NCBI RefSeq assembly: GCF_001888185.1 | Contig: NZ_CP016364.1 | Span: 1,302,001-1,366,000 of the forward strand | Origin: Phaeobacter porticola | Lineage (GTDB): Bacteria; Pseudomonadota; Alphaproteobacteria; Rhodobacterales; Rhodobacteraceae | Reading direction: 5' to 3' | Length of the DNA stretch: 64,000 nucleotides | In this document: positions 15,588-30,718 of the stretch, piece after piece | Layout of the letters: each line of letters begins with the position of its first letter | Numbering within the stretch: the stretch's first letter is position 1 | Translations under genes and position numbers: made by a program | Notes under the pieces: generated by a model | What the model was told of the DNA's origin: nothing | Databases searched by the model: none | Seen by the model: only the letters and a program-made list of their open reading frames with translations

Positions 15588-16907
15588 ATGTTCTTTCAAT
15601 GGCTCAAACACTATATGCCGCGCAGCCTGTACGGGCGGGCGGCGCTTATTCTGCTGGTGCCGATTGTGACGCTGCAATTGGTGGTCTCGGTTGTGTTCAT
15701 CAAGCGCGATCTCGAGGACCTGACGGTCCAGATGACCCTGACCATGCTGCGGGAATTGCGACTGCTGGAGCAGACCATGGCGCCGGCTGCCAGTCAGCAG
15801 GAGGCGTTGTTGCTGGCAGAACCTCTGTTGCAACCCTTGCAGATGCAGCTTCGGTTTCTGGAACAAAGGGAGCCGGTGCCATTGGATCAGATGGGGCTCT
15901 TGGAATTTTCTGGACGGGTGGTGCGCAATACGTTGGAGACCACTGCGCCGCAGTTCATTTCAGCGCAGTTCCCCAACACCCGCCGGGTCCAGTTGGTGCT
16001 TGCGAGTGATCACGGCCCGATGGCGCTGGTATTTGATCGGCGCCGGGTGACTGCGGCGGCACCGCACCAGCTGATCGTGACAGTGATCGCCTTTGGTTTT
16101 CTGATGACGATCATCGCCTTTGTCTACATGCGCAATCAGCTGCGCCCGATCAAACAGCTCGCTGATGCGGCGCAGGCCTTTGGGCGGGGGCGGACGGAGC
16201 CTTATTCACCGCGCGGCGCGAATGAGGTGCGGGCGGCCGGCAGCGCGTTTCTGGACATGCGCGCACGGATCGAGCGGCAGATGGAGCAGCGGACCCTGAT
16301 GCTCTCGGGGGTGAGCCACGACCTGCGCACCCCACTCACAAGGATGAAGCTGGGCCTGTCGATGCTGGACGAGGAGGACGCTGAACCGCTGCGGCAGGAT
16401 GTGGACGAGATGCAGGCGCTCTTGGATGCGTTTCTTGATTTTTCGCGTGGGGTTTCGACCAGTGAGCCGGAGGAAGTCGACCCACATGTGATGATCACGC
16501 TGCTGGTGGATGGTTGGCGCCGACAGGGTAAGGATGTGATGCTGGGTGAGATGAGCGGCAAGGGCAAGGTGATGCTACGCGGGTCTGCGATACGGCGTGC
16601 GGTCCAAAACCTGATCTCCAACGCAGTACGCTACGGCACGCGGGCGCGGGTGTCCGTGACCATGACCGAGAAATTTTTGCGTATCCGGGTTGAGGATGAT
16701 GGCCCTGGTATCGCCGAGGCCGACCGGGCCGAGGCGACGCGCCCCTTCACCCGGCTGGATCCGGCGCGCAATCAGGATCTGGGCAGTGGCGTAGGTCTCG
16801 GACTTGCCATCGTGACGGATATCGCCCGCGCCCATGGCGGCACGCTGCGGCTGGAACAAAGCGTCGCCTTGGGAGGGTTACAAGCCGACATCGTGATCGG
16901 CCTGTAA
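15588..16907 (+). CDS. EnvZ-like sensor histidine kinase
   Basis: This membrane-bound kinase of 439 residues has a first membrane segment at about 17-38, a periplasmic region of about 120 residues, and a second membrane segment at about 163-183. A HAMP linker follows, then the H-box LSGVSHDLRTPLTRMKLGL. The ATPase domain has QNLISNAVRYG (N box), EDDGPGI (G1) and GVGLGLAI (G2). The architecture matches EnvZ. The usual response regulator is not beside it, so its partner must be encoded outside the window. Confidence 0.9.
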   Translation: MFFQWLKHYMPRSLYGRAALILLVPIVTLQLVVSVVFIKRDLEDLTVQMTLTMLRELRLLEQTMAPAASQQEALLLAEPLLQPLQMQLRFLEQREPVPLDQMGLLEFSGRVVRNTLETTAPQFISAQFPNTRRVQLVLASDHGPMALVFDRRRVTAAAPHQLIVTVIAFGFLMTIIAFVYMRNQLRPIKQLADAAQAFGRGRTEPYSPRGANEVRAAGSAFLDMRARIERQMEQRTLMLSGVSHDLRTPLTRMKLGLSMLDEEDAEPLRQDVDEMQALLDAFLDFSRGVSTSEPEEVDPHVMITLLVDGWRRQGKDVMLGEMSGKGKVMLRGSAIRRAVQNLISNAVRYGTRARVSVTMTEKFLRIRVEDDGPGIAEADRAEATRPFTRLDPARNQDLGSGVGLGLAIVTDIARAHGGTLRLEQSVALGGLQADIVIGL

Positions 16908-16928: not shown

Positions 16929-18035
16929 TCAGATCAGCTCTGATATCTCTACGCTGCGTCGCTCCGCGATGGAGATCTGTGCCGCCATCCCCATCAGCAC
17001 TGCCATCCGCCCATCATGAAGGGTCACCTCTGCAGCGACGCGTTCACCGCGAACCAGTTCGAGGAACTTTTGGTGCTGATAGAAGGTGGATCCGTTGTGA
17101 TCACCTGCCTCAAGAAGCTTGGGATCAACGGGAATCGCTTGTGTTACCGGACCTTTCGGGCTGCGCGGTGAGGTCACCAGCTTTGGCAGCGGAGGCGTGC
17201 CTAGATGGGCGGGCCAGAACCGACCCGGTCCGGGCACAAAGGCTTCGATTTTGCCTATGGGGCCGACGGCGGCAATCTCCTCCTGGTACTCCGCACCTTC
17301 GGCAAACATGCACAGCTCCAGCATGGCGCGCGCGCCGCCGCGGAAGTCGACGATCACGTAGCCATTGTCGAGGATGTCAGGCACACCATCTCTGTAGCGC
17401 TCATCAAGATGGTTCACATCCTGCCCGCCGCTGGCCATCACTCGGACGGGTTCTGATCCCAGGGCCAGCCGCATCAGATCGAAGAAATGGCAGCATTTCT
17501 CAACAAAGGTGCCGCCGGATTTGGCGTCAAACCGGTTCCAGTCATCAACCTTTTCCAGAAACGGAAAGCGATGTTCGCGGATGCTTAGCATTCTAACTCC
17601 GCCGGTGGCTGCTTCGACATCACGCAGGAAGGCGGCAACTGGCGGCATGTAGCGATATTCCATCGCCACCCAGACCGGCGTATCATAGCGCGCGGCAAAG
17701 GCATCCAGCCGCCCAAGATCGGCGAGACTGGTGAACAGCGGCTTTTCGACCAGCACCGGCAGTGGGCGATGTTCGGCCAGCGCTTCCAGCTGTTCGAGGT
17801 GGCGGAAGTTGGGGCTGGCAATCAGCAGGCAATCAAGGTCTGGGTGGTTGAGCAGCGCTTCAAGGCTGTCCATGAACTGGGCCTTTGGCGCCAGTTCAGC
17901 CGAAATCTCACGCATGGTGGCGTTTGGTTCATAGATCGCGCCAACTGCCGTGTTGTCCAGCAACGCGATATTTCGCAGATGTTCCTGGCCCATCATGCCG
18001 CAGCCGATGATCCCGTAGGTGGTGGGTCCGGACAT
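16929..18035 (-). CDS. Gfo/Idh/MocA family NAD(P)-dependent oxidoreductase
   Basis: This 368-residue dehydrogenase has an N-terminal Rossmann motif (YGIIGCGMMGQEH) and the family EKP motif (VLVEKPLF) near residue 97. The C-terminal alpha/beta dimer domain carries KCCHFFDLMRLAL with the catalytic histidine region. Family members oxidise or reduce sugars, inositols and related alcohols. It is directly downstream of gntR: its ribosome-binding site (TAGGAGGAAAC) overlaps the gntR stop codon. It therefore shares the regulator's transcript and likely acts on the substrate handled by the divergent monooxygenase-TRAP operon. Confidence 0.9.
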   Translation of the reverse strand: MSGPTTYGIIGCGMMGQEHLRNIALLDNTAVGAIYEPNATMREISAELAPKAQFMDSLEALLNHPDLDCLLIASPNFRHLEQLEALAEHRPLPVLVEKPLFTSLADLGRLDAFAARYDTPVWVAMEYRYMPPVAAFLRDVEAATGGVRMLSIREHRFPFLEKVDDWNRFDAKSGGTFVEKCCHFFDLMRLALGSEPVRVMASGGQDVNHLDERYRDGVPDILDNGYVIVDFRGGARAMLELCMFAEGAEYQEEIAAVGPIGKIEAFVPGPGRFWPAHLGTPPLPKLVTSPRSPKGPVTQAIPVDPKLLEAGDHNGSTFYQHQKFLELVRGERVAAEVTLHDGRMAVLMGMAAQISIAERRSVEISELI

Positions 18036-18043
18036 GTTTCCTC

Positions 18044-18754
18044 CTAAGTGAGGCGCTGCACGTAGAGCGCCTTTTCCGTGTCAAACCAGGTTCGCGAAAA
18101 CTCAACCGGGGCCGGTTCCTGGGCCCAGCTTAGCCGTTCGATAAAGCCAACAGTGGTGCCGGGAGGCTTGGTGAACTGCGCTGGCGCCCAGTCGGGGACT
18201 GTTCCAAGTGAGACGCGATCCTCGGCGCGACTGATCCAGAACCCCAGTTGCAGGCGGTAATAGCGGTAAAGGGAATCAGACAGTTGGGCGGGATCCACAT
18301 GACCCGCTGCGGCATCCAGCCAGATTTCCTCAACTGCGATGATCGTGCTGTCCAGATAGCGCAGTCTGCGGATGCGTGTGCCCTCAGCGCTGGACCCGAA
18401 TTCGGGCAGATCCGCAGGTTTTTCGCATGCCGTAACCGAAAGGATATCCGCTGTCGGTAGGCCCCCGCCACTGGGAAGTTCCAGCCGAAACATTGAATAG
18501 ACGCTCGGCAGGGTTTGCGTTGTGCGGATATAGTTGCCTGAGCCTTGGATGCGCTCCAGCATACCCTGTTTTTCCAGTTCTGACAGGGCTTTGCGCAGCG
18601 TTCTTACGGTGGTTCCATAGGTCTGTGCCAGTTGGCGTTCCGGTGCCAGGCGTTCGCCATCCGCCAGCCGTCCGGCCGCGATTTCGCGCGTCAGCGCCTC
18701 ACTGATCTGAAGGTAAAGCGGCAGTGCAGTGCCTGAGGTGCGAGGGGTGGACAT
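18044..18754 (-). CDS. GntR family transcriptional regulator with UTRA effector domain
   Basis: This repressor-type protein of 236 residues starts at the ATG at 18754 (MSTPRTSGTALPLYLQISE). It has a winged helix-turn-helix (LAPERQLAQTYGTTVRTLRKA) and a C-terminal UTRA ligand-binding domain of the HutC/PhnF group (from about residue 85). It is divergent from the luciferase-like monooxygenase with 100 bases between them, which contain an inverted repeat. It probably controls both directions: gntR-gfo leftward and the monooxygenase-TRAP operon rightward. The effector is unknown. Confidence 0.88.
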   Translation of the reverse strand: MSTPRTSGTALPLYLQISEALTREIAAGRLADGERLAPERQLAQTYGTTVRTLRKALSELEKQGMLERIQGSGNYIRTTQTLPSVYSMFRLELPSGGGLPTADILSVTACEKPADLPEFGSSAEGTRIRRLRYLDSTIIAVEEIWLDAAAGHVDPAQLSDSLYRYYRLQLGFWISRAEDRVSLGTVPDWAPAQFTKPPGTTVGFIERLSWAQEPAPVEFSRTWFDTEKALYVQRLT

Positions 18755-18793
18755 GGGGCCAATCGTCACGATGTGGAAAAAATTGATGCACCA

Positions 18794-18807
18794 TTGATCT
18801 ACATCAA
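18794..18807. promoter_or_regulatory. Candidate GntR operator in the divergent promoter region
   Basis: TTGAT-CTAC-ATCAA is an inverted repeat. An additional TTGATG half-site at 18783-18788 pairs with CATCAA at 18802-18807. It lies between gntR and the monooxygenase gene, where an autoregulating GntR protein would bind. Confidence 0.45.
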
Positions 18808-18855
18808 GGCGCGGGTTATGCAAGAGTTAAGTTGCCAAGTGCGAGGGAGAGGGTG

Positions 18856-20010
18856 ATGAGCGTTGTTCCAGTAACATCTGCGGATCTTGATGCGGTTGAA
18901 GTGTCCTGGTTCGCCGCGCTCTGCTCCGACGACTACCAGTTCCTTGGTGTGCCAGCTGGGGATCTGCGGTCATCCTGGGCGCATTGCTCCGATATCGTGA
19001 AAGAGGCCGAGGCGCAGGGGTTTCGCAACATACTGTGCCCGTCGTCCTATCAGGTGGGGCAGGACACTCTCAGCTTTGTGGCAGGCTGCGCGCCGATTAC
19101 CGACAAGATCAATATGCTGGCAGCGGTGCGCTGCGGTGAGATGCAGCCGATCATGCTGGCGCGCACTCTTGCGACGCTGGACCACATGCTGGAGGGGCGG
19201 CTGACGGTGAACATCATCTCCTCCGATTTTCCAGGCGAGAAAGCCGACAGCGCCTTCCGGTATCAACGCTCACGCGAGGTGGTGGAGATCCTGAAACAAG
19301 CCTGGACCCGCGATGAGATCAACCACAATGGCGAGGTTTATCAGTTCGAGGGGCTGACCACCGATCCGGCGAAACCCTATCAGACCGGCGGGCCGCTGCT
19401 GTATTTCGGTGGCTATTCCCCGGCGGCGCTGGAGCTGTGCGGTGAGCACTGCGATGTCTATCTGATGTGGCCGGAAAAGATGGAAGAGCTCGCGGGGCGT
19501 ATGAAGGCCGTGCATAGTGTAGCGGAAACCTATGGTCGCACGCTGGATTACGGGCTGCGGGTGCATGTCATTGTGCGCGACACCGAGGCCGAAGCCTATG
19601 AATACGCTGATCATATTGTTTCAAAACTGGATGATGCACAGGGTAAGGCCATCCGGGATCGCGCGCTGGATGCCACCTCGCTTGGTGTGGCGCATCAGGC
19701 CAAGAACCGCGATATTGCCGATGAATTCGGGTTTATTGAACCGAACCTCTGGACAGGGATAGGGCGGGCACGCTCTGGTTGCGGGGCGGCGCTGGTCGGA
19801 TCCACCGATCAGGTCATGTCCAAGCTGGAAGCCTATCAGAAAATGGGTATCCGCGCCTTTATTCTGTCCGGCTATCCGCATCTGGAGGAAGCGCGGCATT
19901 TCGGGGCACGGGTGATGCCACATCTAAAAACCTGCTCGCTGCCGCATGAATATGGCCGGGTACCGCAATCGACCCCGGCAACACCCTTAGGGAATGGAGA
20001 ACGTCGTTGA
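18856..20010 (+). CDS. LLM-class flavin-dependent monooxygenase (SsuD-like)
   Basis: This bacterial luciferase-fold enzyme of 384 residues uses reduced flavin supplied by a separate reductase. The start ATG (MSVVPVTSADLDAV) has a GGGAGAGGG ribosome-binding site; an earlier in-frame ATG at 18832 is less likely. Family features are the TIM-barrel segment MLAAVRCGEMQPIMLARTLATLDHML, the VNIISSDFPGE loop, and LLYFGGYSPAALELC. These resemble alkanesulfonate monooxygenase SsuD. It heads an operon with an aldo/keto reductase, a flavin reductase and a TRAP transporter, and its gene overlaps the next by four bases. The substrate may be a sulfonate or another heteroatom compound, but this is inference. 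Confidence 0.88.
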   Translation: MSVVPVTSADLDAVEVSWFAALCSDDYQFLGVPAGDLRSSWAHCSDIVKEAEAQGFRNILCPSSYQVGQDTLSFVAGCAPITDKINMLAAVRCGEMQPIMLARTLATLDHMLEGRLTVNIISSDFPGEKADSAFRYQRSREVVEILKQAWTRDEINHNGEVYQFEGLTTDPAKPYQTGGPLLYFGGYSPAALELCGEHCDVYLMWPEKMEELAGRMKAVHSVAETYGRTLDYGLRVHVIVRDTEAEAYEYADHIVSKLDDAQGKAIRDRALDATSLGVAHQAKNRDIADEFGFIEPNLWTGIGRARSGCGAALVGSTDQVMSKLEAYQKMGIRAFILSGYPHLEEARHFGARVMPHLKTCSLPHEYGRVPQSTPATPLGNGERR

Positions 20011-20900
20011 TGGAACGTATCAAGATCGCAGAAGGGCTTGATTTCAGCCGTCTGGTCTATGGCATGTGGCGCCTGGGCGATGACAGCGACACCTCATCCG
20101 CCCATGTCGAGGCCAAGATCGAGGCGTGTCTGGCGCAGGGCATCACCACCTTTGATCAGGCGGATATCTATGGCGGGTACACGGCTGAGGGGATTTTGGG
20201 GCAGGCGCTGAAGGGCAATCCGGCACTGCGGGATCGGATGGAGATCGTGACCAAATGCGATATTGTGGCCCCGGTCGGTCGCTATGCCGGTGCGACGGTC
20301 AAACATTACGACACCTCGGCCACGCATATCACCCGGTCAGTGGAAACTTCGCTGTCGGAGATGGGCATCGACCACATCGACCTCTTGCTGATCCACCGCC
20401 CGGATCCGCTGATGGATCATATCGAAACCGGCGCTGTACTGGATGAGCTGGTCGCCGCAGGCAAATTGCGCGCCGTGGGTGTGTCGAATTTTCGCCCCTG
20501 GGATTGGGAACTGCTGCAATCTGCTATGAAGACGCCGCTGGCCACCAATCAGATTGAGATTTCGCTCTCTGAGGTCACTCCTTTCACCAATGGCGATCTG
20601 GCCTTTCATCAGCGTCTGGGCCATCCGTTGATGGCCTGGTCGCCGCTTGGCGGCGGAGGCTTAATGACCGGCAGCGGCCAATTGGCCGAACGGCTAGATG
20701 TAATTGCGCAGGCGCAGGGCGTTGACCGCGCCGCCGTCGCCATAGCCTTCCTGCTGCGGCACCCCGCTCGGATCCTGCCGGTGTTGGGTACCAACAACCT
20801 GGCGCGGATCAAACAGGCTTCTGACGCGCTGAAGGTCGAGTTGGACCGCCCGACCTGGTTCAAATTGTATGAGGCGGCATTGGGCCGGGAGGTCGCATGA
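20007..20900 (+). CDS. Aldo/keto reductase (YdhF-like)
   Basis: This 297-residue NADPH-dependent carbonyl reductase shows AKR motifs: FDQADIYGGYTAEGILGQAL (catalytic Asp/Tyr), a lysine in IVTKCDIV, LLLIHRPDP (catalytic His), and GVSNFRPWDWELL. The late LPVLGTNNLARI segment is typical of the YdhF branch. It overlaps the monooxygenase by four bases and the following flavin reductase by four bases. All three are translationally coupled and probably act in sequence, the AKR handling an aldehyde or ketone released by oxygenation. Confidence 0.92.
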   Translation: MMERIKIAEGLDFSRLVYGMWRLGDDSDTSSAHVEAKIEACLAQGITTFDQADIYGGYTAEGILGQALKGNPALRDRMEIVTKCDIVAPVGRYAGATVKHYDTSATHITRSVETSLSEMGIDHIDLLLIHRPDPLMDHIETGAVLDELVAAGKLRAVGVSNFRPWDWELLQSAMKTPLATNQIEISLSEVTPFTNGDLAFHQRLGHPLMAWSPLGGGGLMTGSGQLAERLDVIAQAQGVDRAAVAIAFLLRHPARILPVLGTNNLARIKQASDALKVELDRPTWFKLYEAALGREVA

Positions 20901-21421
20901 TGTCTGCGCATGCAGGGCAGGGGAAACATAGCTTTGTCCCGGCACCAGATAACACACGACTGCTGCGCGACGCATTTGGCCGGTTCGCAACTGGCGTCAC
21001 CATCGTGACAGCGGCGTCCGAGCAGGGTGTGGTGGCGATCACCGCCAACAGTTTCACCTCGGTTTCGCTGACGCCGCCGCTGGTCCTGTGGTCGCCAGAC
21101 CGCAATTCGCGCCGCTTTCCCTATTTTGAGGAGGCCCGCCACTACGCCATCCATGTGTTGGCGGCGGATCAGGATGATCTGTGTTGGCAGGTCGCAAAAG
21201 ATGCTTTTGGGCTGAACCATTTGCAGCTTGCGCAGAACGAGAACGGTGTGCCGCTCCTGGAGAACTGTCTGGCGCGCTTTGAATGCACCCGCTCAGCTAT
21301 CCATGACGGAGGGGACCACGCCATTGTGCTGGGACATGTGGACCGCGCCACCATGCGCGAAGAAGGGGATGCATTGACATTCTACAAGGGCCAGATGGGC
21401 CAGATCGCCGCCTCAAGTTAG
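20897..21421 (+). CDS. Flavin reductase-like protein, partner of the monooxygenase
   Basis: This 174-residue split-barrel FMN reductase has FATGVTIVTAASEQGVVAI, ITANSFTSVSLTPPLVLW and HDGGDHAIVLGHV. It starts within the last codons of the AKR gene (ATGA overlap). In the operon it most likely reduces FMN for the luciferase-like oxygenase three genes back, the usual two-component arrangement. It is a paralogue of the lone reductase at 4059-4559. Confidence 0.92.
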   Translation: MMSAHAGQGKHSFVPAPDNTRLLRDAFGRFATGVTIVTAASEQGVVAITANSFTSVSLTPPLVLWSPDRNSRRFPYFEEARHYAIHVLAADQDDLCWQVAKDAFGLNHLQLAQNENGVPLLENCLARFECTRSAIHDGGDHAIVLGHVDRATMREEGDALTFYKGQMGQIAASS

Positions 21422-21479
21422 CGGCCGGTTGTCCGCACCGAGGGAGGTCGGGGCGGCACAAGGGGAGGAGAGAGACGCG

Positions 21480-22070
21480 ATGACGGCAGTTCTATCTGTC
21501 CTGAATATACTGCGCCCACTCAACACCGGCTTGCTTGCAGCCGGTCGTTGGGTGGGCGTTTTTGCCATTGGCCTGATGGTTCTGGCAATCCTGATTCAGG
21601 TCTTCTTTCGCTATGTGCTGGGCAGCGCGTTACCCTGGCCGGATGAGGCTGCGCGGTTCTGCATGTTGTGGATGACTGGGCTGATGGCGCCCACGGCACT
21701 GCGCAGCGGTGGTTTTGTCGCCATTGATGTTGTCGACTCCCTGCTGCGAGGCTGGCTGTTTCACCTCTTGCAACTGCTGCTTCTGATGATTGGCCTGACC
21801 GTGCTGATCGTGGGGCTCCAGATCGGCTACAAGGAGGTCACAGGGCTTGGCGGACGCTTTGCCACAGCTTCGCTCTACCTGCCGACATCGCTGGGGTTCG
21901 ACAGCTGGTTCCGGGTGCCGCGCAGCTGGATGATGCTCTCGCTTGTGGTGGGGCTGGGCCTGTTAATTCTGGTGAATATCGAGCTGATCCTCGAACGCAT
22001 CGTGCGATTGTTTGGCCAGGGAGATCGCCTGCCGGAGCGTCCGGGGCTGAGCATCGGAGGGGCGGAGTGA
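21480..22070 (+). CDS. dctQ: TRAP transporter small membrane subunit, DctQ family
   Basis: This 196-residue membrane protein starts at the ATG at 21480 (MTAVLSVLNILRPLN), preceded by GGGGAGGAG. It has four hydrophobic segments; the motif FFRYVLGSALPWPDEAARF between the first two is the DctQ signature. It is followed by dctM with a four-base overlap and then dctP, so this TRAP system is ordered QMP rather than PQM as at 8-11 kb. Confidence 0.9.
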   Translation: MTAVLSVLNILRPLNTGLLAAGRWVGVFAIGLMVLAILIQVFFRYVLGSALPWPDEAARFCMLWMTGLMAPTALRSGGFVAIDVVDSLLRGWLFHLLQLLLLMIGLTVLIVGLQIGYKEVTGLGGRFATASLYLPTSLGFDSWFRVPRSWMMLSLVVGLGLLILVNIELILERIVRLFGQGDRLPERPGLSIGGAE

Positions 22071-23545
22071 TGTTGATCTGGTTCCTGCCGCTGTTTCTGT
22101 TCCTTCTCCTGATTGGCTTGCCGGTGTTTTTCTGCCTGTTGGCAGCACCGGGGGCGCTGCTGTGGCTGAACGGACAAGAGCGCGACCTGACCCTACTGTA
22201 TCGCAATCTTTATAACGGGATGGACAGCTTTCCGCTGATGGCGATCCCGTTTTTCATGCTAGCGGGAGAGCTGATGAACCGGGGTGGCATCACCGTGCGA
22301 CTCGTCGAGTTTTCGCAGGCCCTGATGGGGCATCTGCGCGGCGGGCTGGCACAGGTGAATATTCTGTCGTCGATCCTGTTTGCGGGGCTCTCTGGCTCTG
22401 CCGTGGCGGATACCTCGGCGCTGGGTTCCATGCTGATCCCTGCAATGGAGCGCGAAGGGTACAGCCGGAAATTCGCGGCGGCCGTGACCGCTGCCAGTTC
22501 GGTGATCGGGCCGATCATTCCGCCCTCGGGTATTATGATCATCTATGCCTATGTCATGGGTGAAAGCGTCGCTGCGCTGTTCCTCGCAGGGATTGTGCCG
22601 GGTGTACTGGTGGGCGTTGGCCTGATGATCATGGTCCGCGCCATGGCCGACCGGTATGAGCTGCCGGCCGCGCGGCGGGTGGTCTTCGACAGTGTTGAGA
22701 TCGGCGTGATGGAGCGTTGGTTCTCCCTCGGATTGGTGCGGTTGAACCTTGGCCTGCTGTTGGCGCAGTTTGTCCCCTTGGCCGAGGGGGCCGGGCCACA
22801 GATGAAATGGCTTGCCTTCTTTGGGGCGGTGCTGTTTGCACATGGGTTGATGCTGGGGCTGCGTCGGGTGGTCAGCCCGGCGTTCCGCACAATCTGCAAA
22901 CGGGCCGTGGTGCCATTACAAACGCCAGTCCTGATCCTTGGCGGCATTCTCGCTGGCGTCTTCACCCCGACGGAGGCTGCGGCAGTGGCTGTCGCCTATG
23001 CGCTGCTGATCAGCTTTCTGGTGCTGGGATCGATGCGGCTGGCGGACCTACCGCAGGTGTTTTCGCGCGCTGGGATCACCTCTGCCGTGGTGCTGTTGCT
23101 GGTGGGCGCCGCGATGTCGTTCAAGACCGTGGTCAGCCTTAGTCACGCGCCGGAGCAACTGGCCGATTTCATCCTGACGCTCTCGGAAAACCCGCTGATC
23201 CTGCTGTTCCTCATCAATCTGCTGCTGTTTGTCGTCGGCATGTTTCTGGATGCAGGACCTGCGATCATCATCCTTGGTCCGATCCTTGGGCCGGTGTTCA
23301 CCGATCTTGGCGTTGAATCTGTGCATTTCGCCATCATCATGTGTGTGAACCTGACAGTCGGCCTTGCGACCCCGCCCATGGGGCTGGTGTTATTTGTGGC
23401 CGCTGCCGTCTCACAGGAGCGTGTCACCACTATTGCCAAGGCGATCCTGCCGTTTCTGGCGATTGAAATAGCGGTGATTTTTCTGATCACCTTTGTTCCG
23501 GCCATCTCGCTGACCATTCCGCGATTGACCGGGTTTCTGAACTAA
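22067..23545 (+). CDS. dctM: TRAP transporter large permease, DctM family
   Basis: This 492-residue polytopic permease has about 12 membrane segments. Family motifs include FSQALMGHLRGGLAQVNIL, SSVIGPIIPPSGIMIIYAY, GVFTPTEAAAVAV and LTVGLATPPMGLVLFV. It is somewhat longer than usual because of an extra loop at residues 205-265 that links two halves. It overlaps dctQ and is 45 bases before the binding protein. Confidence 0.94.
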   Translation: MMLIWFLPLFLFLLLIGLPVFFCLLAAPGALLWLNGQERDLTLLYRNLYNGMDSFPLMAIPFFMLAGELMNRGGITVRLVEFSQALMGHLRGGLAQVNILSSILFAGLSGSAVADTSALGSMLIPAMEREGYSRKFAAAVTAASSVIGPIIPPSGIMIIYAYVMGESVAALFLAGIVPGVLVGVGLMIMVRAMADRYELPAARRVVFDSVEIGVMERWFSLGLVRLNLGLLLAQFVPLAEGAGPQMKWLAFFGAVLFAHGLMLGLRRVVSPAFRTICKRAVVPLQTPVLILGGILAGVFTPTEAAAVAVAYALLISFLVLGSMRLADLPQVFSRAGITSAVVLLLVGAAMSFKTVVSLSHAPEQLADFILTLSENPLILLFLINLLLFVVGMFLDAGPAIIILGPILGPVFTDLGVESVHFAIIMCVNLTVGLATPPMGLVLFVAAAVSQERVTTIAKAILPFLAIEIAVIFLITFVPAISLTIPRLTGFLN

Positions 23546-23590
23546 GGACGACCGAAAAACCAAATAAAAGAGCAACAGGAGGAGATAAGA

Positions 23591-24649
23591 ATGCTCAGGA
23601 AATTGGCAAAGACAGTGGCCCTGTCAGCCCTGATGGCAGGCACAGCCCTGTCGGCCTATGCGGCAGATTACAAGATCCGCGCAACCGCGAATTCAAACGA
23701 GAATGACGAGGATTACGACGGTCTGGTGGTGTTCAAAAACTACGTCGAGGCGGCCTCAAACGGCGCAATCGAGGTTGAATTGTTCATCGGCACGCAGCTT
23801 TGCTCCAATGGGGCAGAATGCCTGCAGGGCGTCGCCGACGGCTCGATTGACGTCTATATCTCCACCTCCGGTGGCGCGTCGGGGCTGTTTCCCTATGTTC
23901 AGGTGCTCGATCTGCCCTATCTGATGGCCGACGATCGGATCGCCGAACATGTCTTGTCGGGTGACTTTACCCGTGCCATGCGCCAGATGGCGCTGGAGGA
24001 TTCCGGCGACTCCATTCGACTGATGACCGTTGGCAATACCGGCGGCTGGCGGAACTTTGCCAATACCAAGCGTCGTGTGGCGGAACCTGCCGACATGGAA
24101 GGTCTGAAAATCCGCACTGTCGTTGCCGACTTGCCGCAGGAACTGGTGAAGGCGCTGGGGGCCTCCCCGACACCGATCCCGTGGCCTGAGCTGTTCACCT
24201 CGTTCCAGACCGGCGTGGTCGAAGGGTCCAAGAACGGCATCACCGATATTATGGGCATGAAGTTCCCGGATGCTGGCCTGCAATATGTGACGCTGGACGG
24301 TCACGCCTATATGGGCGCGCTGTGGTGGATGTCGAACAAGACCTTCATGGATATGCCGGAGGACATGCGTCAGGTTGTCGTGGACGGGTTCTATGCGCTG
24401 CAGCAGGCGACGTTTGCTTCGCCCAAGCGCAAGTCGATCCAGGCCTATGAGGATTTTGTCGCGGGCGGCGGTGATCTCTATGTGCCCACGCCAGATCAGA
24501 AGGCCGCTTTCAAATCCGCTGCCGAGCCGGTTTATGACTGGTTTAAGTCCAACGTGACCCGCGGTGATGAGATCTTCACTGCATTGGCGGAGGCCGTGGC
24601 CGAGGCAGAAGCCGACGTCAGCGCGGCTCGCGCGGCAGATCTGAATTGA
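23591..24649 (+). CDS. dctP: TRAP transporter substrate-binding protein, DctP family
   Basis: This 352-residue periplasmic receptor has a signal peptide ending ALSAYA before ADYKIRATAN. An AGGAGG ribosome-binding site precedes the ATG. The central ligand segment reads MEGLKIRTVVADLPQELVKA, with the conserved arginine, followed by PIPWPELFTSFQTGVVEGSK. It is the last gene of the monooxygenase operon, so its ligand is probably the substrate of those enzymes. The mature N-terminal half has an unusual cysteine pair (LCSNGAEC) that could form a disulfide. Confidence 0.92.
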   Translation: MLRKLAKTVALSALMAGTALSAYAADYKIRATANSNENDEDYDGLVVFKNYVEAASNGAIEVELFIGTQLCSNGAECLQGVADGSIDVYISTSGGASGLFPYVQVLDLPYLMADDRIAEHVLSGDFTRAMRQMALEDSGDSIRLMTVGNTGGWRNFANTKRRVAEPADMEGLKIRTVVADLPQELVKALGASPTPIPWPELFTSFQTGVVEGSKNGITDIMGMKFPDAGLQYVTLDGHAYMGALWWMSNKTFMDMPEDMRQVVVDGFYALQQATFASPKRKSIQAYEDFVAGGGDLYVPTPDQKAAFKSAAEPVYDWFKSNVTRGDEIFTALAEAVAEAEADVSAARAADLN

Positions 24650-24707: not shown

Positions 24708-25214
24708 TCACCGGAATGGATACATCCAGACCTTGTAATCCTCGACCAGAACATGCGCCTTATCGATCTCTGCCGGGGTCATCTTCTTGACCACTTCTTC
24801 CAGGCTGATGGCCGCATCAGGGTCACCGCCGATGGCCGACAGCGTGTACCACATATAGGCGCGCACCAGATCGGGGGCGGGCATCCCACGGCCGATTTCA
24901 TAGTACCACCCGATACCGGACTGCGCGCCCGGATGCCCCTTCATGGCGCTGCGCAGGTACCATTCAAAGGCCCGGACATCGTCTTGCTCAACGCCCAGCC
25001 CCATGGCGTACATCACGCCGATCAACTCTTCCGCATCGGCATTGCCGGATCGCGCCGCAGGCCAAAGCGCATCATGCGCCGCCGCAAACTGCCCGGCCTC
25101 CATCAGATCGCGGGCCTGTTCGATTTCAGCCCAAGCGGGCAGAGGCGCAGTCATCGTCAGGCTGGTCATGGACAGCGCCACCGCGACCAGAACCGGTTTC
25201 CATCTCTTGCGCAT
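24708..25214 (-). CDS. Exported Sel1-repeat protein
   Basis: This 168-residue protein has a good signal peptide (MRKRWKPVLVAVALSMTSLT..., cut after PAWA). It has about three Sel1/TPR-like repeats: DAEELIGVMYAMGLGVEQDD, a second with GWYYEIGRG, and a third with YMWYTLSAIGGD. Such proteins act as periplasmic scaffolds or in envelope signalling. Its start abuts the presumed start of the divergent di-heme peroxidase gene, so the two share a very compact control region. Partner is unknown. Confidence 0.85.
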   Translation of the reverse strand: MRKRWKPVLVAVALSMTSLTMTAPLPAWAEIEQARDLMEAGQFAAAHDALWPAARSGNADAEELIGVMYAMGLGVEQDDVRAFEWYLRSAMKGHPGAQSGIGWYYEIGRGMPAPDLVRAYMWYTLSAIGGDPDAAISLEEVVKKMTPAEIDKAHVLVEDYKVWMYPFR

Positions 25215-26552
25215 GTGCTCTCCTGTGTCGTGCTGACCCTTGGCCTTTGTACGAGGGCGGCCCTGGCAGAGGAACCGCAGCTGCCGCCATCGCTGAGGCC
25301 CGGCGATTTTATACCCGTGGATCCGGCGAAGGCGGAACTGGGGCGATTGCTATTTTATGACAAGATCCTGTCGGGGAACAGAAATATCAGCTGCGGCACC
25401 TGTCATCATCCGCGTCATGGCACCTCTGATGGATTGTCGCTGGGGTTGGGCGAGGGGGCAGAGGGGCTGGGACCTGCGCGTCTGTCCGGCAGAGGCGCAA
25501 ACCGGGTGCAGAAACGTGTGCCGCGCAATGCGCCAGCGCTTTGGAACCTCGGGGCGACATCCATCCGCGTGCTGATGCATGACGGGCGGATCAGCGAGGA
25601 TCCCATCTATGGCAATGGTTTCAACACCCCGGCGGAGGAATGGCTGCCGAAAGGGTTGCAATCGCTGCTGGCTGCGCAGGCCTTGTTCCCCATGACCTCC
25701 AGCGTAGAGATGGCAGGCAATGTCGGCGAGAATGAGGTGATAGGCGCCACCCGCGACAGGATTGATCTGGTCTGGCCGATCATTGCCAAACGCGTCCGCA
25801 GCTTGCCGGACTATCGCGGAGGGTTCGTTGCCGCCTTTGATCACATCTCGGCACCGGAGGATGTGGAAATCACAGATATTGCCGAGGCGCTGGCCCAGTT
25901 CATGGTGCAGGATTTCACCTCGGTTGATAGCCCATTTGATGCCTATCTGGCGGGGAATGACACCGCCCTGACCGCGCAGCAAAAAGCCGGGGCGGACCTG
26001 TTCTTTGGCTCTGCCGGATGCAGCGGGTGCCATGCTGGGCCGCTGTTTTCGGATCAGAACTTCTACGCCCTCGGTTTGCCGGCCTTCGGCCCTGGTCGCG
26101 CGCGCCGATTTGACCCTTATGCCCGGGACGTCGGTCGTATGGGCGAAAGCGATGATCTGGCAGACGCCTACCGGTTCCGCACGCCTATGTTGCGCAATGT
26201 GGAACTGACTGGCCCTTATGGCCATAATGGCGCTTTCCCGACACTGGAGCGGATGATCCGGCACCATCTTGATCCAGTCGCAAGCCGTTCGGCGTGGATG
26301 CCTGACGATCTGCAATTGCCAGATGTGCCCTGGCTGGCCGCCACAGATTTTGTGGTGCAGCAGGACCGGTTCGAGATGGCGCGTCAGGCGCGGACCCGCG
26401 ACATCTATCTGCGTCAGGACCTGAGCGATCAGGATATCGCGGCGCTGGTCGCCTTTCTCACGGCGCTGACCGGCGAAAAAGCACGCGCACAGCAATCGTC
26501 TGTCCCCTCCGCCGTTCCCAGCGGCCTGCCCGTTGATGGGGCAAAGCGCTGA
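25215..26552 (+). CDS. Di-heme cytochrome c peroxidase / MauG family protein
   Basis: This periplasmic protein of about 445 residues has two c-type heme sites: CGTCH (Cys at about residue 60) and CSGCH (Cys at about 269). The frame also shows YGHNGAFPTLERMIRHH near the C-terminus, as in the family. The start is not obvious. The frame is open far upstream, but an alternative GTG at 25215 gives a plausible export signal (VLSCVVLTLGLCTRAALA) lacking the usual positive charge. Members reduce peroxides or carry out post-translational oxidation. It converges with the mannitol dehydrogenase gene. Confidence 0.82.
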   Translation: MLSCVVLTLGLCTRAALAEEPQLPPSLRPGDFIPVDPAKAELGRLLFYDKILSGNRNISCGTCHHPRHGTSDGLSLGLGEGAEGLGPARLSGRGANRVQKRVPRNAPALWNLGATSIRVLMHDGRISEDPIYGNGFNTPAEEWLPKGLQSLLAAQALFPMTSSVEMAGNVGENEVIGATRDRIDLVWPIIAKRVRSLPDYRGGFVAAFDHISAPEDVEITDIAEALAQFMVQDFTSVDSPFDAYLAGNDTALTAQQKAGADLFFGSAGCSGCHAGPLFSDQNFYALGLPAFGPGRARRFDPYARDVGRMGESDDLADAYRFRTPMLRNVELTGPYGHNGAFPTLERMIRHHLDPVASRSAWMPDDLQLPDVPWLAATDFVVQQDRFEMARQARTRDIYLRQDLSDQDIAALVAFLTALTGEKARAQQSSVPSAVPSGLPVDGAKR

Positions 26553-26605: not shown

Positions 26606-28072
26606 TCAGTGCCCTAGATATTCACGAAGCGCCGCGCGGCAACCCTGCGCCCGGATCATCGACAGCCAGTAAGAAAACCGCGCAACCACGTCCTGTTGCT
26701 CTGATAGATCTCCATAGATCTGGCTTTGCTGCAACCAGACCTCAGGGGTTTTCTGCGCGCGTTCCGCTGCGGATTTGCGGGCCTCCCAATCGGGGTCGTT
26801 TGGCGCGATCCCGCTGGTATCCTCGCGCTGCCCGGTACACATCTGCGCCCAGAGCGCCTCCACAAGGCAAAGCCCGTCAATTGCGCTCTTGCTCCGCACG
26901 GCATCGCGCAGGATCGGCAGCACAAACCCCGGATGGCGCGATGAGCCGTCATAGGCCACACGCCGCGTCGTGTCGCGGATCTCCGGATTGGAGAAGCGCG
27001 CCTCAATCAGGGTAAGGTAATCCTCCGGCGCCATCTCGGGTACTGCCGTCACATGCGGTAGAATTTCCACCGTCTGTACCTTGCGAAAGAAGGCCGCCAG
27101 CAAGGGATCTTTCATGCAGTCGGCGATGGTCGCGATCGACAGCAGCTCACCTGCGTTGGCCAGCACCTGATGGCCCGCGTTCAGCACGCGGATTTTCATG
27201 CTTTCGTAGCCGTGAACATCGTCGGTGAAGATGGCCCCCGCCAGATCCCAAGGAGGGCGCCCGGCGCAGAATTCATCCTCAATGACCCAATGCCGGTAAT
27301 TCTCATGTGACACGGGGGCGGTGTCCTCAATCCCGTAGTCCCTGGCCAGAGCGATCTCAGCCGGACCGGTGGCGGGCACAATGCAATCCACCATGGAATT
27401 TGGAAAGGCCCCGGTTTGATCAATCCATGCGGCAAGCTCCGGATCGGTCTGCTGCGCCAGTGTCACCACTGCAGCGCGGGTAATTTGACCGTTGCCCTGG
27501 AGGTTGTCGCAGCTTTGCACGGTGAAGGCGGGCAGGCCACGACCCCGGCGCAGGCGCAGCGCCGCAACTATGGCACCAAACACGGTGCGTGGGCGGTCGG
27601 GCCGGGCAATGTCATGCCGGATATCCTCATGGTTGAGGTCCAGTCCCTTGTGCTGTGCGTCCTGATAATAGCCACCTTCGGTCACAGTCAGCGAAACGAT
27701 ACGGATGGCGGTGCCTGCCATGCAACGGATCAGGCTGGTATTGTCATCTTCGACCGGTAGGAAATCGATCATCGGTCCGATCACCTCGGCGGACCGGCCG
27801 GTCGGATCCAGTTCGATCAATGTTGTCAGACAATCCTGCGCCAGCAAGCGGTCCCGCATTCCTGCATCGGCCGCACGGACGCCGGCCCCGATGATGCCCC
27901 AATCCATCGCCAAGCCCCGCTGCATCAAGGCATGCAGATACCAGGCCTGATGCGCGCGGTGAAAATTTCCAAGTCCGATATGGACGATGCCAGGGCTGAT
28001 TTCGGCGCGGTCATAACTGGGCCGGCCAATCGTCTGCGGCAGTTGGCTCAATGTATCATTCGAGAGTTTCAT
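26606..28072 (-). CDS. mtlK: Mannitol 2-dehydrogenase (polyol-specific long-chain family)
   Basis: This 488-residue NAD-dependent enzyme oxidises D-mannitol (and often arabinitol or sorbitol) to the ketose. Signatures are GIVHIGLGNFHRAHQAWYLH, the dinucleotide-binding start, and NSMVDCIVPATGP; the catalytic lysine segment follows KIRVLNAGHQ. I start at the ATG at 28072 (MKLSNDTLSQLP). It is the last gene of the smo operon, as in Rhodobacter, giving a complete uptake-and-oxidation route for hexitols to fructose. Confidence 0.95.
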   Translation of the reverse strand: MKLSNDTLSQLPQTIGRPSYDRAEISPGIVHIGLGNFHRAHQAWYLHALMQRGLAMDWGIIGAGVRAADAGMRDRLLAQDCLTTLIELDPTGRSAEVIGPMIDFLPVEDDNTSLIRCMAGTAIRIVSLTVTEGGYYQDAQHKGLDLNHEDIRHDIARPDRPRTVFGAIVAALRLRRGRGLPAFTVQSCDNLQGNGQITRAAVVTLAQQTDPELAAWIDQTGAFPNSMVDCIVPATGPAEIALARDYGIEDTAPVSHENYRHWVIEDEFCAGRPPWDLAGAIFTDDVHGYESMKIRVLNAGHQVLANAGELLSIATIADCMKDPLLAAFFRKVQTVEILPHVTAVPEMAPEDYLTLIEARFSNPEIRDTTRRVAYDGSSRHPGFVLPILRDAVRSKSAIDGLCLVEALWAQMCTGQREDTSGIAPNDPDWEARKSAAERAQKTPEVWLQQSQIYGDLSEQQDVVARFSYWLSMIRAQGCRAALREYLGH

Positions 28073-28101
28073 GGCTGGTGCCTCCCACCTGTGTTCCCGC
28101 A

Positions 28102-28875
28102 TCAGCTCATCCATTGGCCGCCATCGACGTTGTAGGTCTGAGCCACCACATAATCGGCGGCCTCGCTGGCCAGAAAGACGACCATTCCGGTCAGATCTGC
28201 TGCGGTGCCCATCCGCCCGTAAGGAACAGATTGCGCCACCTCGGCCTTTTTCTGGCCGGGGGCCTTGCCTTCATATTTGGCAAAGAAGGCATCAACCCCG
28301 TCCCAATGTTCACCGTCGACGACACCGGGGGCGATGGCGTTCACATTGATCCCATGTGAGATCAGGTTCAGCCCGGCAGATTGCGTGAGGCTGATCACCG
28401 CCGCCTTTGTCGCGCAGTAGACGGATACCAAAGGCTCACCCCGACGGCCGGCCTGGCTGGCCATGTTGACAATCTTGCCGCCGGTGCCCTGGGTGATCAT
28501 CTGTTGTGCCGCTGCTTGCATCATGAACAACGTACCGGAAACATTGATGTCAAAAGTGCGCTGGTAGGCTTCTCGGGTCACCTCAACCAGCGGCGCCGCC
28601 GTGAATACGGCGGCGTTGTTGATCAGAATGTCGAGGCCGCCGAAGCACTCAACGGTGCGGGAGAGGGCGCGGTCAATGCTGGCTTGATCCGTGACATCCA
28701 GCTCGACGGCAATCGCCGCCGCGCCGATTTGCGCGGCAGTTGCCTCTGCACGGGCAGTATCAATATCGGCGATCATCACGCGCGCGCCCTCATTCGCATA
28801 GGCTTCGGCAAAGGCCGCCCCGATGCCACGGGCAGCACCTGTGATCAGGGCGCGTTTTCCACTCAGCCGTTTCAT
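28102..28875 (-). CDS. smoS: Sorbitol dehydrogenase (short-chain dehydrogenase)
   Basis: This 257-residue SDR oxidises sorbitol (glucitol) or galactitol with NAD. It has [10 protein letters not shown] (cofactor loop), INNAAV, MASQAG serine and the YCATK active-site motif with the catalytic tyrosine and lysine, then the C-terminal [10 protein letters not shown]. Length and sequence match SmoS of Rhodobacter sphaeroides as I remember it. Its start overlaps the smoK stop by four bases. Confidence 0.93.
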
Positions 28876-29876
28876 TCGATCCGCAGCCCGTCGGAACCAA
28901 ACCGATGCAGATGCGTCATGTCAGGCGTTAGGAAAACGCGTGCGCCGTAGCCCAGATCTAGCTCCCCGCTCGCTCGCACGGTAAGCGGGTCGTCAAAGGC
29001 GTCACATTGCACGTGGAAAAAAGTGTCGGATCCCAGATGCTCAGAGACACCAATGGTTCCCGCCCACATCCCCTCTGTTTCTGAGATGCTGAGATGTTCG
29101 GGCCGGATGCCGATGGTGGCTACATTGTGCTGCGCTGCCTGCGGGCCGGTTAGAAGGTTCATCTTCGGCGATCCGATAAAGCCCGCGACAAATACATTGC
29201 GTGGCGCGCGATACAGCTCCATCGGACTGCCGACCTGTTCGATCACGCCAGCCTGCAAGACGACGATCTTGTCAGCCATGGTCATCGCCTCAACCTGATC
29301 ATGGGTCACATAGATCATGGTGGTTGCAAGGCGTTTGTGCAGCTCCGAGATTTCCAGCCGCATGCCAACGCGCAGGGCGGCATCCAGATTGGACAGCGGT
29401 TCGTCAAACAGAAACGCCGCCGGTTCACGCACAATGGCACGGCCGATCGCGACGCGTTGACGTTGACCGCCCGACAGCTGGCCGGGGCGGCGATCCAGAT
29501 AGTCGGTGAGGTTCAGCGCCGCAGCGGCGTTATCAATTCGGCGCTTCTGCTCATCCGCCGGAATGCCCGCCATCTTCATCGGAAAGGTGATGTTCTTGCG
29601 CACCGACATATGCGGATAAAGCGCGTAGGATTGAAACACCATCGCCAGTCCGCGTTTCGCCGGGGGGATGTCGGTTGCATCCTCGCCATCGATGCGGATG
29701 GTGCCGGAGGTGATATCCTCCAGTCCCGCGATCAGGCGTAGCAGTGTTGATTTGCCACAACCGGACGGGCCGACAAAGACGGTGAATTCGCCATCTTCAA
29801 TGGTCAGGTCCAGCGGCGGGATGACCTCAACGGGGCCAAAATTCTTGGTCACGCTTTCAAGTTTGATCTGTCCCAT
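28872..29876 (-). CDS. smoK: Polyol ABC transporter ATP-binding protein
   Basis: This 334-residue ATPase energises sorbitol/mannitol import. It shows Walker [10 protein letters not shown], the signature LSGGQRQRV, Walker [14 protein letters not shown], and a C-terminal MalK-type OB/TOBE domain ([10 protein letters not shown]). I start at ATG 29876 ([14 protein letters not shown]); the open frame runs 68 codons upstream into smoG. It sits between smoG and smoS and overlaps smoS. Confidence 0.95.
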
Positions 29877-29887
29877 AGGTGTCTTCC

Positions 29888-30718
29888 TTATTTCACGGCG
29901 CCGAAGGTCAGGCCGCTGACAAGTTGTTTCTGGCTGAACCAGCCAAGGATGAGGATCGGAGCGATGGCCATTGTCGAAGCTGCCGACAGCTTGGCGTAGA
30001 ACAGGCCTTCGGGGCTGGAATAGCTGGCGATGAACGCGGTGAGCGGTGCGGCCTTGGCGGCGGTCAGGTTCAGTGTCCAAAAGGCTTCGTTCCAGGCCAG
30101 GATGATGTTCAACAGGAGGGTGGAGGCGATTCCGGGGATGGCCATCGGTGTCAGCACATAAAGGATTTCCTCCTTCAGCGTGGCACCATCCATACGCGCC
30201 GCCTCAAGGATCTCACCGGGGATTTCCTTGAAGTAGGTGTAAAGCATCCAGACAATGATCGGCAGGTTGATCAGCATCAGCACCACAACCAGACCAAAGC
30301 GGTTGTCCAGCAGCCCCATTTTGATGAACAGGATGTAGATCGGGTAGAGTACGCCGACCGCGGGCAGCATCTTGGTCGACAGCATCCACAGCAGGATATC
30401 CTTGGTGCGTTTCGACGGCACAAAGGCCATCGACCAGGCAGCAGGCACCGCGATGATAATGCCCAGAATGGTCGAGCCACCGGCGATGATCACCGAATTC
30501 CAAAGGAACCGCATATAGTCGGAGCGTTCCTGCACAACGCTGTAGTTTTCCAGCGTCCAGTCAAAGAACAGGAAGACGGGCGGATCGCTGATGGCCTGTG
30601 CCTCGGTCTTGAAACTTGTGAGAATGGTCCAGAGGATGGGAAAGAAGATCAGTAACCCGACAGCCCAGGCCAGCGCCGTATTGATGGCTTTGCGTCTTGG
30701 TGTAACGGCTCGTGCCAT
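29888..30718 (-). CDS. smoG: Polyol ABC transporter permease (second)
   Basis: This 276-residue inner-membrane permease of the MalG type has six membrane segments. Its EAA loop reads [17 protein letters not shown] near residue 180, which docks onto the ATPase, and it ends SGLTFGAVK. It lies eleven bases from smoK and nine from smoF in an uninterrupted operon. Confidence 0.94.

Follow-up and report, generated by a model that had tools for sequence, protein, structure and literature searches.

Sulfoquinovose (SQ), a sugar containing sulfur, is abundant in the membranes of plants and algae. It is made and degraded at about 10 billion tons per year (PMC10755693), and its consumers in the sea include Roseobacters. 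The sulfolytic sulfoquinovose monooxygenase pathway (sulfo-SMO, also termed sulfo-ASMO) of Agrobacterium tumefaciens, in which SQ is converted to sulfite and glucose, comprises SmoC, SmoB and a flavin reductase (PMC12890257, PMC9594981). The pathway is defined by SmoA, SmoB and SmoC, and the presence of SmoB and SmoC inside a window of 10 open reading frames (ORFs) is used as a genome criterion (PMC13372026, PMC12890257). Sulfoquinovosidases of the family GH188 are reported to be near-universal in the sulfo-SMO clusters of marine Roseobacters, and a Phaeobacter inhibens cluster is listed in the legend of Figure 5 of that study (PMC10755693).

The present analysis concerns a gene cluster of Phaeobacter porticola located in a stretch of 64,000 nucleotides (the window, G000:C1:1302001-1366000) of a 4.2-Mb genome consisting of 6 contigs. 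With high confidence, the sequence matches of its products identify it as a probable sulfo-SMO cluster fed by a tripartite ATP-independent periplasmic (TRAP) importer, and the strain very probably takes up SQ and uses it fully via this already known route. The TRAP importer was less to be expected, as was the sel1-mauG pair beside it, which seems to accompany the cluster and is probably the new part.

Enzymes, gene order and proposed working

The monooxygenase gene was found as a Bac_luciferase ORF at 18832-20010 (+) with the likely start at the ATG 18856, resulting in a predicted smoC at 18856-20010. Its product matched 7olf (E = 7e-213, 78.3% identity) and 7oh2 (8.4e-205, 75.5%). The aldo-keto reductase (AKR; Aldo_ket_red, 20007-20900, +) matched 7bbz with an E-value of 2.3e-127 and was 66.9% identical to 7bby. 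We take 7olf and 7oh2 to be SmoC structures, and 7bby and 7bbz are presumably SmoB. Judged by these matches, the monooxygenase is SmoC, predicted to cleave the C-S bond of SQ with FMNH2, and the AKR is SmoB, predicted to reduce 6-dehydroglucose to glucose. The smoB frame touches smoC, well inside the 10-ORF window, and therefore the cluster most likely leads from SQ glycosides to SQ, then to sulfite and 6-dehydroglucose, and finally to glucose. The flavin reductase of FerA/HpaC type (20897-21421, +; PF01613, 3.2e-37) would fill the role of SmoA.

The third enzyme carrying the assignment is encoded by the leftward gene at 16929-18035 (-). Its product, a Gfo/Idh/MocA protein labelled gfo in the first-pass annotation, is, by sequence, a glycosidase, namely a GH188 NAD+-dependent sulfoquinovosidase of the SqgA type. 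The phmmer matches were 8zn9 (2.6e-160), 8qc3 (2.1e-107) and 8qc2 (1e-106), with 50.7% identity to 8qc3; 8qc3 and 8qc2 are ArSqgA and FlSqgA, the prototypes of GH188 (PMC10755693). The SQ-contacting and catalytic residues of ArSqgA, Lys107, Tyr136, Glu163, Arg166, Leu170, Lys172, Glu189, His193 and His321 (PMC10755693), are all kept as K98, Y127, E154, R156, L160, K162, E179, H183 and H313, and they were invariant in 92 of 92 aligned rows (the window and 91 loci, 15 of these without SmoC). The residues were mapped by our own count, in which one glutamate lands at 164 instead of the published 163. The reading of the protein as a sugar dehydrogenase was rejected, as its sequence matches place it with GH188. 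No GH31 match (PF01055) was obtained in the P. porticola genome by a search that was positive in 6 of 14 control genomes, which fits the reported complementary distribution of GH188 and GH31 (PMC10755693).

Several points weigh against the assignment of the enzymes. The structures taken here as SmoC and SmoB have generic PDB names, which for 7olf, 7oh2 and 7bby read 'Methanesulfonate sulfonatase' (7olf), 'Alkanesulfonate monooxygenase' and 'Aryl-alcohol dehydrogenase'. With the FerA model, the flavin reductase scored 196.7 bits (cut-off 260); no SmoA model or structure was among its matches, and it carries no specific SmoA assignment. Neither a sulfite exporter nor a sulfite oxidase was recognised in the cluster; genome-wide, the TauE family gave six matches and PF03601 (YeiH type) none.

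The genes of the importer follow as dctQ (small permease, 21429-22070, +; PF04290, 2.5e-19), dctM (large permease, 22067-23545, +; PF06808, 6.1e-113, and TIGR00786 above its cut-off) and dctP (binding protein, 23591-24649, +; PF03480, 1.6e-51). The three are adjacent and all above the Pfam cut-offs, as expected of a DctP-type TRAP transporter. Overlaps of 1-4 bp, depending on the start codons, were determined for smoC/AKR, AKR/flavin reductase and dctQ/dctM.

SmoC (E <= 1e-120) was detected in 164 of the 394 sampled genomes of the family. Gene order was studied in the named loci, which are the best 80 of at least 526 relatives; the nearest SmoC among them was that of Phaeobacter italicus with 92% identity (records very near the P. 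porticola genome may be absent). The full set of GH188, GntR, AKR, flavin reductase, DctQ, DctM and DctP was found in the window's order and orientation around SmoC in 63 of the 80, and the order is therefore not due to chance. Singly, GH188 was in place in 76, GntR in 80, SmoB in 79, the flavin reductase in 77, DctQ and DctM in 67 each and DctP in 63 loci. Of the 17 loci in which DctP was not at this position, three (L030, L075, L080) are truncated at contig ends, and L020 includes a masked stretch. Nine plasmid records contained one place each covering at least 80% of the cluster.

These results alter the first-pass annotation, in which the block at 18044-24649 was described as a catabolic module for an unknown compound. 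Every gene named there was found above the curated Pfam cut-off for its family, and the ORF coordinates confirmed that they overlap or are tightly packed. A catabolic module that combines uptake with the supply of flavin, an oxygenation step and the reduction of a carbonyl is borne out, and its genes do belong together; the gfo gene is a part of it that lies outside the range 18044-24649. The survey of gene neighbourhoods suggested as a check has been run, and the order is not confined to this strain. The unknown compound, on the other hand, falls because the core is a known pathway, SQ being indicated by the identities of SmoC, SmoB and GH188. The statement that no characterised system has this set fails as well, given that SmoC, SmoB, flavin reductase and GH188 constitute the known sulfo-SMO pathway.

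In the proposed working of the cluster, sulfoquinovosyl glycerol and/or SQ would be captured by DctP at a two-arginine anion site and imported by DctQM with an ion gradient. Next, the GH188 enzyme would cleave the glycoside through a transient, NAD+-dependent oxidation at C3. FMNH2 from the flavin reductase would allow SmoC to cut the C-S bond, yielding sulfite and 6-dehydroglucose, and SmoB would reduce the latter to glucose. For GH188, SmoC and SmoB the identities were examined as described above, and in the case of GH188 also the residues; the activities are predicted from these. Sulfite would be removed by genes outside the cluster. Both divergent units would be repressed by the GntR/UTRA regulator from a single site over the -35 element until an SQ-type effector binds.

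The sel1-mauG pair

Two genes after dctP had been missed in the first-pass annotation. sel1 (24708-25214, -; PF08238, 5.5e-15; signal peptide by eye) encodes a predicted periplasmic Sel1-repeat protein and lies antisense between dctP and mauG. The second gene (about 25215-26552, +; PF03150, 3e-33; probable GTG start at 25215) encodes a MauG-like dihaem c-type protein with two CxxCH motifs. The two are apparently back to back with starts at 25214 and 25215. This layout (24708-26552), with sel1 antisense, is also seen in relatives and hints at a gene transcribed against its operon.

It is proposed, tentatively and with slightly less than even confidence, that an oxidative component in the periplasm has gone unrecognised in the use of SQ by Rhodobacterales, and that it is formed by the MauG-like protein and, with the TRAP version, its Sel1 partner. 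It would act before or during uptake in both SQ pathways described below, with the TRAP as sulfosugar importer. MauG and MbnH oxidise aromatic residues of partner proteins. By analogy, Sel1 could be the partner whose aromatic residues are oxidised by the MauG-like enzyme; another possibility is that the enzyme acts directly on the substrate derived from sulfolipid.

The proposal is based on the distribution of the pair relative to the importer. DctP (E <= 1e-90) was present in 144 of the 394 genomes, 109 with and 35 without SmoC. In 14 of the 20 SmoC-less loci read from these 35 genomes, the same TRAP was accompanied by an SQ isomerase homologue, a PfkB kinase, a LacD-type aldolase and GH188, a set which resembles the sulfo-EMP2 pathway. 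Sel1 (E <= 1e-40, weakest match 1e-63) was found in 105 genomes, comprising 105 of the 144 with DctP and 0 of the 250 without it, in a raw genome count uncorrected for kinship. Its frequency was 78/109 in genomes with SmoC and DctP, 0/55 with SmoC alone, 27/35 with DctP alone and 0/195 with neither. The sel1 gene was within 8 kb of dctP in 85 of the 105 genomes (median 1175 bp), farther away on the same contig in 6 and on another contig in 14, and the start of a MauG-like gene was within 2.5 kb of sel1 in all 105. Among the 100 loci read (80 named and 20 SmoC-less), sel1 and mauG occurred together in 65, never one alone and always with DctP. Of the others, 19 had a DctP match and no pair (in L077 only a 28% relative) and 16 lacked all three; a repeat search at E 1e-5 gave no MauG-like match in these 35 pair-less loci. 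The pair was present in the stretch read in 12 of the 14 sulfo-EMP2-like loci, the exceptions being L122 and L134.

MauG-like genes were detected in further settings. In the sulfo-EMP2-like loci L116 and L126, mauG abuts pfkB. In L142-L145, which have SmoC and no TRAP or Sel1 match, a mauG homologue with 52-54% identity directly follows the flavin reductase of a smoC-smoB-flavin reductase row. Thus, mauG is associated with SQ clusters of several kinds, and sel1 with those that have the TRAP. Homologues of the MauG-like protein were found in 215 of the 394 genomes (E <= 1e-100), also elsewhere, and mauG alone is therefore no marker. The row smoB-flavin reductase-mauG was seen in L142-L145 and L148 in the absence of TRAP and Sel1, in L148 also with no smoC in the stretch. 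In L147 (G097), a flavin reductase gene (47%) immediately precedes a MauG-like gene (51%), and the stretch gave no match to the other SQ proteins; this may be a remnant, or the two may have a different use there. A second MauG-like gene (49%) of P. porticola is located at G000:C2:40381-41655 (L151), where the surrounding 17 kb gave no match to Sel1 or SQ genes.

A competing explanation is that the pair is a neighbour retained through shared ancestry and unrelated to SQ; it is regarded as doubtful, yet a real possibility. The tree-based control for kinship was weak and underpowered. The SmoC tree comprised 82 rows, namely L142-L145 and 78 of the 80 named loci; five rows of unknown state were left out and 77 counted, and the minimum numbers of changes were 9 for TRAP, 13 for Sel1 and 14 for MauG. 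Just four independent supported pairs were obtained, in which Sel1 followed TRAP in 2.5, opposed it in 0 and showed no difference in 1.5 (averages; median p 0.25), and MauG followed TRAP in 2.1 and opposed it in 0.2 (median p 0.5). A FastTree of 22 MauG-like rows separated most TRAP-linked rows from the rest with mixed support and was not used. Shared ancestry is further favoured by the 39 of 144 DctP genomes lacking Sel1, by the 20 of 105 pairs away from dctP or on another contig, and by the wide occurrence of MauG-like homologues. In contrast, it does not readily account for the absence of Sel1 from all DctP-negative genomes, including the 55 with SmoC, for its presence in both settings, with and without SmoC, or for mauG next to pfkB and after smoC-smoB-flavin reductase.

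The MauG-like protein scored 112, 134 and 240 bits against the curated cut-offs of MauG, MbnH and the His-Xaa-Ser-system MauG-like family (443.85, 362.85 and 340, respectively), below all three; the last of these, TIGR03981, was the best NCBIfam match. Its AlphaFold2 model had a mean predicted local distance difference test score (pLDDT) of 58.6, too poor for a structure search. No column of DctP, sought as a possible target of the MauG-like protein, separated the loci with the pair (66 rows) from those without (19 rows, the 28% relative of L077 included). Among the matches listed in the literature searches, no link of MauG or Sel1 to sulfoquinovose was recognised; PMC7647112 was rejected as a MauG-sulfoquinovose paper, 'maug' being an author name, and sulfoquinovose together with a word starting in 'maug' was also listed for PMC4744853 and PMC10688794. 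The proposal of a periplasmic oxidative component comes from comparative genomics, by which the pair points to a possible periplasmic step tied to SQ use.

Cargo of the TRAP importer

SQ or its glycoside, a sulfonate and not a carboxylate, is the most likely cargo of the TRAP, since both catabolic routes have SQ and its glycosides in common. The basis is guilt by association. The first-pass annotation had suggested a carboxylate-type substrate, and this was rejected as the default because the TRAP also accompanies a second SQ pathway. A listed place was available for 150 of the 164 SmoC genomes, 99 of them with DctP, and in 93 of the 99 DctP was within 8 kb of SmoC on the same contig (median 4654 bp between the listed starts); in the other 6 it was on a different contig. 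In L035, L040, L070 and L072, the TRAP is replaced by a set of ORFs reading as an ATP-binding cassette (ABC) sugar importer plus a YeiH-type exporter; family searches of this variant covered L070, where the YeiH-type (PF03601) gene is beside the importer. The uptake step is thereby sharply predicted, with one TRAP shared by two SQ pathways of unrelated chemistry and replaced by an ABC importer in some relatives.

The anion site is compatible with a sulfonate. R154, R175, N215 and W198 of DctP are kept and, by our own count, align with R152, R173, N213 and the aromatic residue 196 of 4P47. At the equivalent positions of OaIseP, the arginines and the asparagine are in contact with the isethionate sulfonate, and the tryptophan is part of the lining of the site (PMC11668362). 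A disulfide may join C71 and C77, both of which are invariant. The predicted model of DctP (pLDDT 76.7) gave in Foldseek many TRAP binding proteins, SiaP and IseP included, with similar scores, and the structure comparison thus selects no ligand.

An unlikely alternative is that the sulfo-SMO enzymes are correctly assigned and the TRAP imports another compound, such as a glycerol derivative, a carboxylate or a C3 sulfonate, with SQ entering otherwise. TRAP cargoes are typically carboxylates (PMC11668362), and according to a study of 2015 the TRAP arginine restricts the cargo to them (PMC4646407); OaIseP, as a documented sulfonate binder, runs counter to that view (PMC11668362). The import of SQ is also weakened by the 55 of 164 SmoC genomes without this DctP, because of which the TRAP is not obligatory, and by the 6 of 20 SmoC-less DctP loci lacking the sulfo-EMP2-like set (L118, L120, L121, L125, L130, L132). 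Moreover, the SQ isomerase homologue of L116, the one sulfo-EMP2-like locus covered by family searches, reached 279 bits with NF048012, whose cut-off is 700. Against another cargo stand the conserved order of the TRAP with SmoC in 63 of 80 loci, its sharing with the second SQ pathway in 14 of 20 SmoC-less loci, its replacement by an ABC sugar importer and the sulfonate-compatible site.

The SmoC clusters L049, L061, L065, L073 and L085 gave no TRAP match in the stretches read; their importer may be encoded elsewhere in the genome. L120, L125 and L132 contain smoB and the TRAP with no smoC in the stretch and none at E <= 1e-120 genome-wide; L120 also has GH188, GntR and the flavin reductase, and L125 the flavin reductase. 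Another desulfonating enzyme or gene loss is possible in these three. The literature searches for TRAP with sulfoquinovose gave no sulfosugar TRAP among the matches listed, and the papers with both terms (PMC10507020, PMC6386719) concern taurine metabolism. If DctP binds SQ or SQ-glycerol, it would represent a sulfosugar TRAP.

Other substrates, regulation and comparison with known systems

The reading of the locus as a simple alkanesulfonate module (methanesulfonate or taurine-like) with an SsuD-type monooxygenase for sulfur scavenging is very unlikely. The monooxygenase does belong to the SsuD superfamily, and the PDB name of 7olf would suit such a module. Membership in SsuD was rejected, as TIGR03565 gave 248.2 bits against an equivalog cut-off of 518.2, and that in SfnG was rejected by its curated cut-off as well; the protein was below the curated cut-offs of all 21 NCBIfam models listed. 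The match to SsuD 1nqk had an E-value of only 8.9e-55, compared with the 78% identity to 7olf, and GH188 and the SmoB-type reductase would have no evident role in alkanesulfonate use. Of the SsuD-like cleavage of C-S, C-N or C-P bonds guessed earlier, the C-S bond remains. A different sulfosugar, e.g. sulfofucose, is most improbable: SmoC/SmoB chemistry could in principle act on epimers, but the described sulfofucose pathway has an Entner-Doudoroff-type enzyme set with ABC transporters (PMC12421959), and GH188 retains every residue that contacts SQ at its sulfonate and hydroxyl groups.

The sulfo-SMO cluster is probably controlled by the divergent GntR/UTRA (HutC-type) regulator gene (18044-18823, -; PF00392, 6.8e-16; PF07702, 6.7e-19). 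Its listed TTG start is probably too far upstream, the ATG at 18754 being likelier. PhnF, the phosphonate regulator, was rejected (TIGR02325, 69.8 bits; cut-off 156.8). An operator-like site, ATTGATGCACCATTGAT, was recognised by conservation across loci between the divergent genes at 18782-18798 (+). In 79 of the 80 loci (not L080), the 400 bp preceding smoC contained the 17-bp consensus ATTGATRYACYATTGAT exactly once, and no other copy was found in 1.55 Mb of those loci. The P. porticola genome has one match to ATTGATRYACYATTGAT with no mismatch and five with two mismatches, and no match to the reversed pattern; in the window, one match was found and 0.01 expected (at most two mismatches). 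The site overlaps the -35 element (TTGATC) of a putative smoC promoter, TTGATC - 17 bp - TATGCA (18794-18822, +), proposed from the conservation of columns over 73 of 81 upstream stretches, the window included. The sigma-70 consensus scan does not report this promoter, which speaks against it. The simplest reading is that one repressor site serves both divergent units.

To the right, the cluster adjoins a leftward polyol-type operon (26606-30718) with a mannitol dehydrogenase family gene (Pfam) followed, by ORF reading, by a short-chain dehydrogenase/reductase, an ABC ATPase and a permease. To the left, an EnvZ-like sensor histidine kinase gene (15588-16907) is convergent with the GH188 gene.

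In comparison with the sulfo-SMO system of A. tumefaciens, SmoC, SmoB, the flavin reductase and the route from SQ to sulfite and glucose are shared. A. tumefaciens has an ABC transporter for SQ-glycerol (PMC9594981), whereas P. porticola has the TRAP importer instead. The window also differs in its divergent GntR/UTRA regulator and the downstream sel1-mauG. The sulfoquinovosidase of A. tumefaciens is presumably of GH31, and that of the window is GH188. The Roseobacter-clade sulfo-SMO with GH188 (Kaur et al. 2023, PMC10755693) is the same pathway; no mention of TRAP, Sel1 or MauG was found in the greater part of the running text of that article. In the case of the GH188 protein, 51% identity and the nine residues are common with SqgA (8qc2/8qc3, identity to 8qc3), and 8zn9 ('Oxidoreductase, putative') is a closer relative. 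DctP keeps the two sulfonate-contacting arginines and the asparagine of OaIseP (8t9t; PMC11668362), whose cargo is a C2 sulfonate, whereas that of DctP would be a sulfosugar; the acidic residue 76 of 4P47 is, by our own count, N73 in DctP, flanked by the invariant C71 and C77. The MauG-like protein shares the CCP_MauG domain and two CxxCH motifs with MauG, MbnH and the His-Xaa-Ser-system proteins, and differs from them in being below every listed cut-off and in having a Sel1 protein as its neighbour. On account of its TRAP importer, and especially of the sel1-mauG pair, this cluster is a variant of the known pathway that deserves a bench test.

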